Source: Tsuneonella rigui (lineage in GTDB: Bacteria > Pseudomonadota > Alphaproteobacteria > Sphingomonadales > Sphingomonadaceae). From it: a DNA stretch of 64,000 bases. The position numbers were made by a program, and so were the translations under genes. The stretch's first letter is position 1; each line of letters opens with the position of its first letter. This document shows positions 6,237 to 10,231 of the stretch, piece by piece. The DNA lies in NCBI RefSeq assembly GCF_003958625.1, contig NZ_RSEL01000003.1, positions 1 to 64,000 on the forward strand, given 5' to 3'. The notes below the pieces were generated by a model. That model did no database searches and was not told the origin of the DNA. It was given only the letters and a program-made list of their open reading frames with translations.

Positions 6237-6320
6237 CGTCGTCCCAGCGAAGGCTGGGACCTCGTTGATTCATCCGTCCCGCTTGGCTGCACGAGATCCC
6301 AGCTTACGCTGGGATGACGA
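6237..6320. repeat. REP/BIME-like inverted repeat (CCCAGC type)
   Basis: Two copies of a REP-like unit face each other: CGTCGTCCCAGCGAAGGCTG at 6237 and, inverted, a copy ending in GCTGGGATGACG at 6319. The 28-base arms match at 24 positions, each arm is itself a small hairpin, and about 28 bases separate them. It lies between the convergent ends of the bactofilin and acyl-CoA synthetase genes. It belongs to the same general class (CGTC-N-TCCC ends) as the elements at 8077 and 9838, but with a different stem sequence. Confidence 0.85.
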
Positions 6321-8076: not shown

Positions 8077-8165
8077 CGTCATCCCCGCGAACGCGGGGAT
8101 CCATCTCCGGGCCTCGCGGCTGGATCGATGGCAAGAGATGGGCCCCCGCGTGCGCGGGGGTGACG
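8077..8165. repeat. REP/BIME-like inverted repeat (CCCCGCG type)
   Basis: An 89-base element whose 31-base ends are inverted copies: CGTCATCCCCGCGAACGCGG begins the left arm, and the right arm ends in GCGCGGGGGTGACG. The arms match at 27 of 31 positions, and both end inward in CATCTC/GAGATG. The 27-base centre codes for nothing evident. The same arms bound the GIY-YIG gene at 9838-10224, so this short form may be a deletion (MITE-like) derivative of that unit. Confidence 0.88.
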
Positions 8166-8195
8166 ACAAATTGAGGGGTGGTCCCGGCTGGGAGT

Positions 8196-9837: not shown

Positions 9838-10224
9838 CGTCATCCCCGCGAACGCGAGGACCCATCTCCCGCGGCCGCGACCGTCGCTACGAAAGTATCT
9901 CGAACCAGCGGTCGCGCCAATCCGGGTTGCCGCGCTCGATCAGCTCGATCTTCCACGCGCGTCGCCATTTCTTGACCGCTTTTTCGCGGGCGATCGCGTC
10001 TTCAATGCTGTCGTATGGTTCGAGATGGACCAACCGACTGATGCCGTGTTCGCGGCAGAACGCGCTGCCCGTGCCGTCGCGATGCTGCACCATGCGCGCG
10101 GCGATGTCGGCGGTCACGCCGGTGTAGAGGGCGCCGTTCCTGCGGTTGGCAAGAATGTACACCCAGCCACCTTTGCTCATCCCGCTGCCGCCGGAGATGG
10201 GCCCCCGCTTTCGCGGGGGTGACG
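9838..10224. mobile_element. Putative mobile unit: GIY-YIG gene bounded by inverted REP sequences
   Basis: A 387-base unit whose two ends are 31-base inverted REP copies: left 9838-9868, beginning CGTCATCCCCGCG; right 10194-10224, ending GCGGGGGTGACG. Both arms carry the same inner CATCTC/GAGATG border as the 89-base element at 8077-8165. Inside is only the GIY-YIG gene, whose stop is 18 bases from the left arm and whose start is 13 bases from the right arm. The arrangement looks like a minimal element with terminal inverted repeats and its own nuclease. That it moves is inference; the arms and gene position are seen. Confidence 0.6.
9887..10180 (-). CDS. GIY-YIG nuclease family protein (UPF0213/SLX1-like single domain)
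   Basis: Single GIY-YIG endonuclease domain of 97 residues. The signature is VYIL (residues 7-10) and LYTGVT (18-23); Arg29 and His33 follow in RMVQHRDG, and the metal-binding Glu66 in AIAREKAVKKWRRAWK, ending in NPDW. All catalytic positions look intact. Such proteins cut DNA using one metal ion; the role of the free-standing kind is mostly unknown. It is enclosed between inverted REP sequences that also occur in short form nearby, suggesting that the nuclease acts on, or spreads with, these repeats. Confidence 0.92.
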   Translation of the reverse strand: MSKGGWVYILANRRNGALYTGVTADIAARMVQHRDGTGSAFCREHGISRLVHLEPYDSIEDAIAREKAVKKWRRAWKIELIERGNPDWRDRWFEILS

Positions 10225-10231
10225 AACTTGG

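Follow-up and report, generated by a model that had tools for sequence, protein, structure and literature searches.

A GIY-YIG nuclease gene enclosed by inverted CGTC REPs: a candidate mobile unit and a candidate enzyme source for CGTC repeats

Bacterial REPs comprise the GTAG repeats, which are associated with RAYT tyrosine transposases, and the CGTC repeats (Di Nocera et al., 2013, PMC3733652). The CGTC repeats are found mainly in alpha-Proteobacteria and include the Neisseria dRS3 and Rickettsia RPE (RPE-4/6) repeats; their stems start with AT, their loops have 4-5 nt, their tails read CCA, and they mostly occur as inverted dimers (Di Nocera et al., 2013, PMC3733652). REPs favour the 3' ends of genes, and those of the CGTC type apparently lack a dedicated transposase, their mobilisation by a broad spectrum of transposases having been considered (Di Nocera et al., 2013, PMC3733652). 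At least five phyla contain CGTC REPs, whose means of spread was left open in 2013.

GIY-YIG nucleases are tied to selfish DNA in homing endonuclease genes and in Penelope elements. Slx1, another member of the fold, is a nuclease of branched DNA. According to the available passages of one family survey, the stand-alone prokaryotic GIY-YIG members belong to the Slx1 cluster and are predicted to act in repair, and those passages do not tie them to repeats (Dunin-Horkawicz, 2006, PMC1564403).

The window, i.e., the whole 64,000-nucleotide stretch of Tsuneonella rigui DNA analysed here, contains a gene of this kind between two inverted REPs, together with two gene-less REP dimers (REPINs):

9838..10225, no strand: whole unit, 388 nt, with no copy at the orthologous site in same-genus relatives
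9838..9869, plus strand: left CGTC-REP arm, CGTC tag outermost, stem partly decayed, matching the arm pattern with 1 mismatch
9887..10180, minus strand: GIY-YIG nuclease gene, 97 aa, stand-alone, intact, with all catalytic positions present
10193..10225, minus strand: right CGTC-REP arm, hairpin intact
8077..8166, no strand: gene-less REPIN of the arm family of the gene-bearing unit, two inverted arms with a spacer of about 26 nt
6238..6318, no strand: second, different REPIN, of the CCAGCG arm type

The unit resembles the REPtron/RAYT (TnpA-REP) system, in which a small nuclease gene is likewise flanked by inverted REPs, many gene-less inverted pairs lie elsewhere, and the cognate nuclease and its repeat co-vary. 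However, the REPtron enzyme is an HUH Y1 transposase (PF01797) instead of a GIY-YIG protein (PF01541), and its repeats carry GTAG tags, whereas the arms of the unit are tagged (C/T)GTC at their outer ends. The GIY-YIG unit also exists in multiple dispersed copies; tnpA-REP, by contrast, is single-copy in most cases and shows no sign of mobility (PMC8266576). With insertion sequences and MITEs, the unit shares a single gene between terminal inverted repeats and gene-less relatives with the same ends, as well as the multiple dispersed copies and empty orthologous sites of insertion sequences, but it is far smaller (~370 nt), encodes no known transposase family and shows no detected target duplication of the kind that most DDE families produce. 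Unlike homing endonuclease genes, which sit in a conserved target gene, intron or intein, and unlike Penelope elements, the unit has no intron, intein, NUMOD domain or reverse transcriptase at the loci examined; it has its own inverted ends and occupies diverse intergenic sites.

A repeat search identified the two arms as inverted copies that are 86% complementary over 42 nt, and the open reading frame is the sole gene between them, separated from the arms by 18 and 13 nt, just as the reading made from the sequence alone had described. That reading had described the arms simply as inverted copies. The right arm folds into an intact hairpin (−10.2 kcal/mol, z −3.9 against shuffles), but the left one is degenerate, with stem mismatches and a fold no better than that of shuffled sequences (−3.1 kcal/mol, z −0.2). 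Because of this decay, the window copy may no longer move despite its intact gene. By their CGTC/TGTC tag, AT-first GC stem, 4-5 nt loop, CCA tail and arrangement as inverted dimers, the arms classify as CGTC REPs; over 120 elements, the base preceding GTC is C or T in 98% of left and 95% of right arms.

The REPIN at 8077-8166 carries both arms of the gene-bearing unit at 94% identity, with the same tail (CCATCTCC) and orientation, and the whole dimer is predicted to form a strong hairpin (−37.3 kcal/mol, z −6.2). An empty element with the same arms had been noted here from the sequence alone and was taken for a MITE-like deletion derivative. The first part of that claim stands, but as the REPIN and the unit have only the arms and the CCATCTCC tail in common, it is better described as a REPIN of the same family than as a visible deletion product of this copy, and is presumed to be a trans-mobilised partner of the nuclease unit. 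The window contains 7 matches to the arm pattern, where shuffles lead one to expect 0.06, and the whole genome contains 20 arms of this first type (≤3 mismatches), mostly as inverted pairs, against 0 for a reversed control. The source genome also holds 22 REPs of the CCAGCG type; a search of this genome for a nuclease copy of the CCAGCG type found none, and these REPs are possibly relics of a lost element. A second GIY-YIG copy lies elsewhere in the same genome (G000 C26:8639-8914; L003, L186), flanked by inverted arms of a further type, CCCGGACTTGATCCGGG, with a CTTGA loop.

The 97-residue protein matches the Pfam GIY-YIG profile (PF01541, E 1e-12), and no NCBIfam model matched it in a profile search. 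In an alignment of 32 sequences, the catalytic positions Tyr19, Arg29, Glu66 and Asn85 are invariant, Tyr8 is nearly invariant and Gly21 is conserved. The relatives also share an invariant tail that marks the subfamily, K-x-W-x(3)-W-K followed by N-x-x-W-x-D. The AlphaFold2 model (pLDDT 94) is closest to the UPF0213 structures 1zg2 and 1ywl among PDB entries, followed by Slx1, and the UPF0213/Slx1-like resemblance is also evident from the sequence. The UPF0213 proteins have the same size and fold as the nuclease, but no link to REPs appears in the papers found on them, whereas the present subfamily has the REP flanks and the invariant tail. Members are currently annotated as “GIY-YIG nuclease family protein” or “excinuclease ABC subunit C”. 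A search of a phage collection returned distant matches only, mostly from Rhizobium phages.

Relatives of the nuclease came from 299 same-family genomes and from a species-level collection of genomes. Matching inverted arms within 160 nt (score ≥16) were present in 90% of the 111 flank pairs of the first set, and at 160 of the 190 relatives in the enlarged, de-duplicated set. The sequence-only reading had named, as an outcome that would speak against it, arms no more common at these genes than at others. Set against these frequencies of 84-90%, just 3 of 378 control ORFs in the same loci were flanked by arms, two of them adjoining the nuclease gene, and none of 423 random positions of equal spacing. 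The arms of one locus also fit each other: 76% reached a match score of at least 20, compared with 11% when left and right arms were swapped between loci. On the basis of the control ORFs, random positions and swapped arms, we rejected chance and a REP-rich background as the cause of the flanking. The units have a median length of 378 nt (5-95% range 356-506), and about 16% of the relatives, e.g., that of Rhizobium K1/93, have no recognisable arms. The relatives come from Gammaproteobacteria, Hydrogenophaga, a myxococcal MAG and several alphaproteobacterial orders; plasmid records contain armed copies from Sphingobium, Shinella, Sinorhizobium and Rhizobium, and a Planktothrix plasmid copy has a related GTCATTCTGAG repeat nearby.

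Individual genomes carry up to 17 homologues of the nuclease. In G140, five units, each exactly 374 nt long and ~96% identical from arm to arm, lie between different neighbours, and three of the five have in-frame stops, as expected of an element that disperses while its copies decay. The same association emerges when the search starts from the repeats. Inward-facing REP pairs in G209 are either short dimers of 65-120 nt or span 369-373 nt; the nuclease gene lies inside each of the three longer ones. In G105, a 380-nt pair (C1:347382-347761) was flagged before its content was known, and a protein search later placed a GIY-YIG gene at 347437-347697; both pairs of this length in G105 contain the gene, so that all five REP pairs spaced 365-385 nt in the two genomes do. 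At the loci examined, the insertion sites are intergenic, with many different neighbours. We also observed 13-17 homologues in G072, among them partial copies (query residues 1-36 and 37-91 apart) that are apparently degenerate or split. Copies in G112 and G140 (L168-L177) lie within another host repeat, with GCGGAC(A/G)TTC to their left and often TGTCCGC to their right, which suggests that nuclease units in these two genomes prefer palindromic targets.

The window unit has a GST gene on one side and a quinone oxidoreductase gene on the other. A second outcome named against the sequence-only reading, relatives that always have the gene without arms, is not what we found: in the same-genus genomes G300, G299 and G228, the two neighbours are adjacent across a short spacer that holds neither the gene nor a REP. 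A single gene junction in another genus (g43) gives a similar picture over more species. In about 18 of them the genes lie 16-33 nt apart, in others the spacer is longer, in most cases 70-143 nt with REPINs of several unrelated families, and three (G345, G306 and G261) carry a full GIY-YIG unit. This junction (L276-L325) is an insertion hotspot just past a stop codon, where the inverted pairs belong, depending on the species, to the CGTC REPs or to the unrelated CGTCATTGCGAG, CCGTTCGCCCTGAGC and CCCCTCCCGC types. On the Sphingobium plasmids TYG64 (L270) and TYG74 (L268), a single palindrome with CGTC at both ends (CGTCACCCCGGGTCAAGCCCGGGGTGACG) occupies the position where sister plasmids carry the unit, a possible excision or collapse footprint of the element.

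Direct repeats of 3-8 nt flanking 120 elements showed no excess over chance, a lack of target duplication that speaks against a route of the DDE kind. Outside the tags, the left flank is pyrimidine-rich and the right flank purine-rich. Comparisons within the genus, among Sphingobium plasmids, and in Sinorhizobium and Shinella yielded no clean pair of pre- and post-insertion sites at base resolution: the same-genus relatives are too diverged for base-level junctions, some Sphingobium plasmids have unrelated repeats at the site, and the Sinorhizobium and Shinella sites contain extra REPs or diverged spacers.

The arms can be classified by stem and loop as CCCGCG, CCAGCG, CCTGCG and CTTGA-loop types. 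On a maximum-likelihood tree of 126 nucleases, built from a short alignment and with many unresolved forks, the arm class changes 12 times, where the possible minimum is 5 and shuffled labels give 62.5. The arm class agrees with that of the nearest nuclease from a different genome in 89% of cases (shuffled 30%, maximum 47%). Where a genome has two arm types, the arm resembles that of the nearest foreign nuclease over that of its genome-mate in 30 of 32 comparisons, and a Mantel test gave rho 0.34 (p 0.001). Judged from these comparisons, arm type follows the lineage of the nuclease, not the host genome. Such covariation would be expected from co-inheritance as a unit and likewise from recognition of the arms by the enzyme.

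Across the 299 genomes, the nuclease is present in 189 of 211 genomes positive for CGTC-type REPs but only 34 of 88 negative ones (OR 13.6, p 5e-19), a correlation that is partly built in, since each unit itself adds two REPs; when at least four REPs are required, the OR is still 15. The corresponding association with Y1_Tnp is OR 2.1 (p 0.09). Species are not independent in these statistics, which a within-genus test corrects only partly. There, the concordance between nuclease copy number and REP number is 154 (shuffled 0.6 ± 25, maximum 75), compared with 17 ± 14 for Y1_Tnp. The association is specific to the arm type: CCAGCG REPs occur in 33 of 34 genomes with a CCAGCG-type nuclease and in 82 of 265 others (OR 74), while the OR of this nuclease type with other REPs is 2.7. 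No nuclease was detected in ten genomes with at least 10 REPs, and up to 90 (G135); several of these genomes are incomplete, others may have lost the nuclease, and their REPs could be relics. Y1_Tnp is absent from 109 of the 129 REP-rich genomes. We rejected RAYT as the mobility factor: a search for PF01797 in the source genome and in the same-genus genomes searched found none, Y1_Tnp shows no association with REPs of this type across the 299 genomes, and four RAYT loci have no CGTC arms. The proposal, already made from the sequence alone, that a GIY-YIG protein accompanies these REPs in place of a RAYT agrees with both the genus-level and the 299-genome results.

Multicopy dispersal, a uniform length of ~370 nt, arm-nuclease co-inheritance and empty orthologous sites support the suggestion of the sequence-only reading that the locus is a mobile unit, and we consider it probable that the window unit is one, with this nuclease as its cognate factor. 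We infer the mobility of the unit from such genomic comparisons, as we do the recognition of hairpins, the cleavage site, a DNA intermediate, mobilisation in trans and what host enzymes contribute. One GIY-YIG gene between two inverted CGTC REPs, tags outward, would constitute a very small mobile element, whose nuclease would recognise the REP hairpins of its own family on single-stranded or cruciform DNA and nick at or near the CGTC-tagged ends. The freed or copied segment would then enter a new intergenic site. To our knowledge, GIY-YIG enzymes neither join DNA nor hold DNA ends covalently, so a host step is needed, and host polymerase and ligase would finish the reaction. As a detailed cleavage-and-paste route, this scheme is tentative. 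Gene-less REPINs that share these arms are probably acted on in trans by the same enzyme, which would then be the missing mobility factor of CGTC REPs. We lean slightly towards the broader view that CGTC REPs, one of two large REP super-families and with Neisseria dRS3 and Rickettsia RPE among its members, have GIY-YIG nucleases as their dedicated mobility enzymes, and that the ~370-nt autonomous unit and its many trans-mobilised REPINs together represent a new class of transposable element in prokaryotes, one that moves with no DDE, HUH, serine or tyrosine transposase.

The main rival is homing into pre-existing REPINs. REPs and REPINs would spread by other means, and a GIY-YIG homing endonuclease would cut gene-less REPINs and be copied in by recombination, with the REP halves providing the homology. 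The GIY-YIG fold is a classic one for homing, the arms of units and REPINs are equal in sequence, tail and orientation, target duplications are absent, and arm-nuclease co-inheritance would follow from homing too. Homing explains the shared arms, but not the insertions at new sites or the link to abundance: unit-free orthologous sites usually lack a REPIN with the same type of arm, REP abundance follows the nuclease within genera, and REP mobility would have no explanation in the many REP-rich genomes without Y1_Tnp. Arms of ~30 nt are also short for recombination, and we regard homing as unlikely.

Still less probable, and already disfavoured, is a host repair protein of the Slx1/UPF0213 kind that resides in REP-rich spacers by chance, the REPs being terminators or hitch-hikers moved by RAYT or other transposases. 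The repair role predicted for prokaryotic Slx1-like proteins in the available passages of the family survey (Dunin-Horkawicz, 2006, PMC1564403) and the preference of REPs for gene 3' ends (PMC3733652) would suit such a passenger. It is at odds with near-identical dispersed copies, some of them broken, with the rarity of flanked control ORFs, with arms that follow the nuclease clade, with orthologous sites that lack the unit, and with RAYTs that are missing from the genus genomes searched, unassociated with these REPs and, at four loci, devoid of CGTC arms. We give least credence to movement in trans by an unrelated arm-recognising transposase, with the GIY-YIG protein only protecting or resolving REP hairpins: broad-spectrum mobilisation was considered by Di Nocera et al. 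(PMC3733652) and GIY-YIG enzymes are not known to join DNA, but DDE-type target duplications are missing, and the arm type co-varies with the GIY-YIG protein, which identifies that protein as the specificity partner.

A mobile unit with the GIY-YIG nuclease as its cognate factor is therefore the reading that we carry forward. As the unit lacks some features that define RAYT systems, insertion sequences or homing genes, yet its proposed working is REPtron-like, we rate it as a new category; a cautious reader could place it as a variant of the REPtron kind. No earlier report linking GIY-YIG to REPs was found in open-access PMC full text, where one paper containing both terms merely lists them in a pangenome table; priority for the link is uncertain. 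The widespread, multicopy unit is a concrete candidate for the enzyme source of the CGTC REP class, and a ~97-residue nuclease that co-varies with these repeats makes the question of their spread directly testable. If the proposal is true, the unit would rank with the smallest known autonomous mobile elements and would be a counterpart of the REP/RAYT systems built on an unrelated enzyme; a very common family that now has a generic annotation would also gain a function.

Two minor observations concern other repeats and records. A Neisseria gonorrhoeae record filed as a plasmid (2.17 Mb; L192) contains a GIY-YIG homologue among dRS3 repeats, and several PLSDB “plasmid” records of 2-5 Mb look like misfiled chromosomes. 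Diverged GIY-YIG homologues (L162, L164 and L166, in G296, G301 and G265) lie close to CGTCATTGCGAG-type repeats, a hint that further families of palindromic repeats may have a GIY-YIG nuclease of their own.
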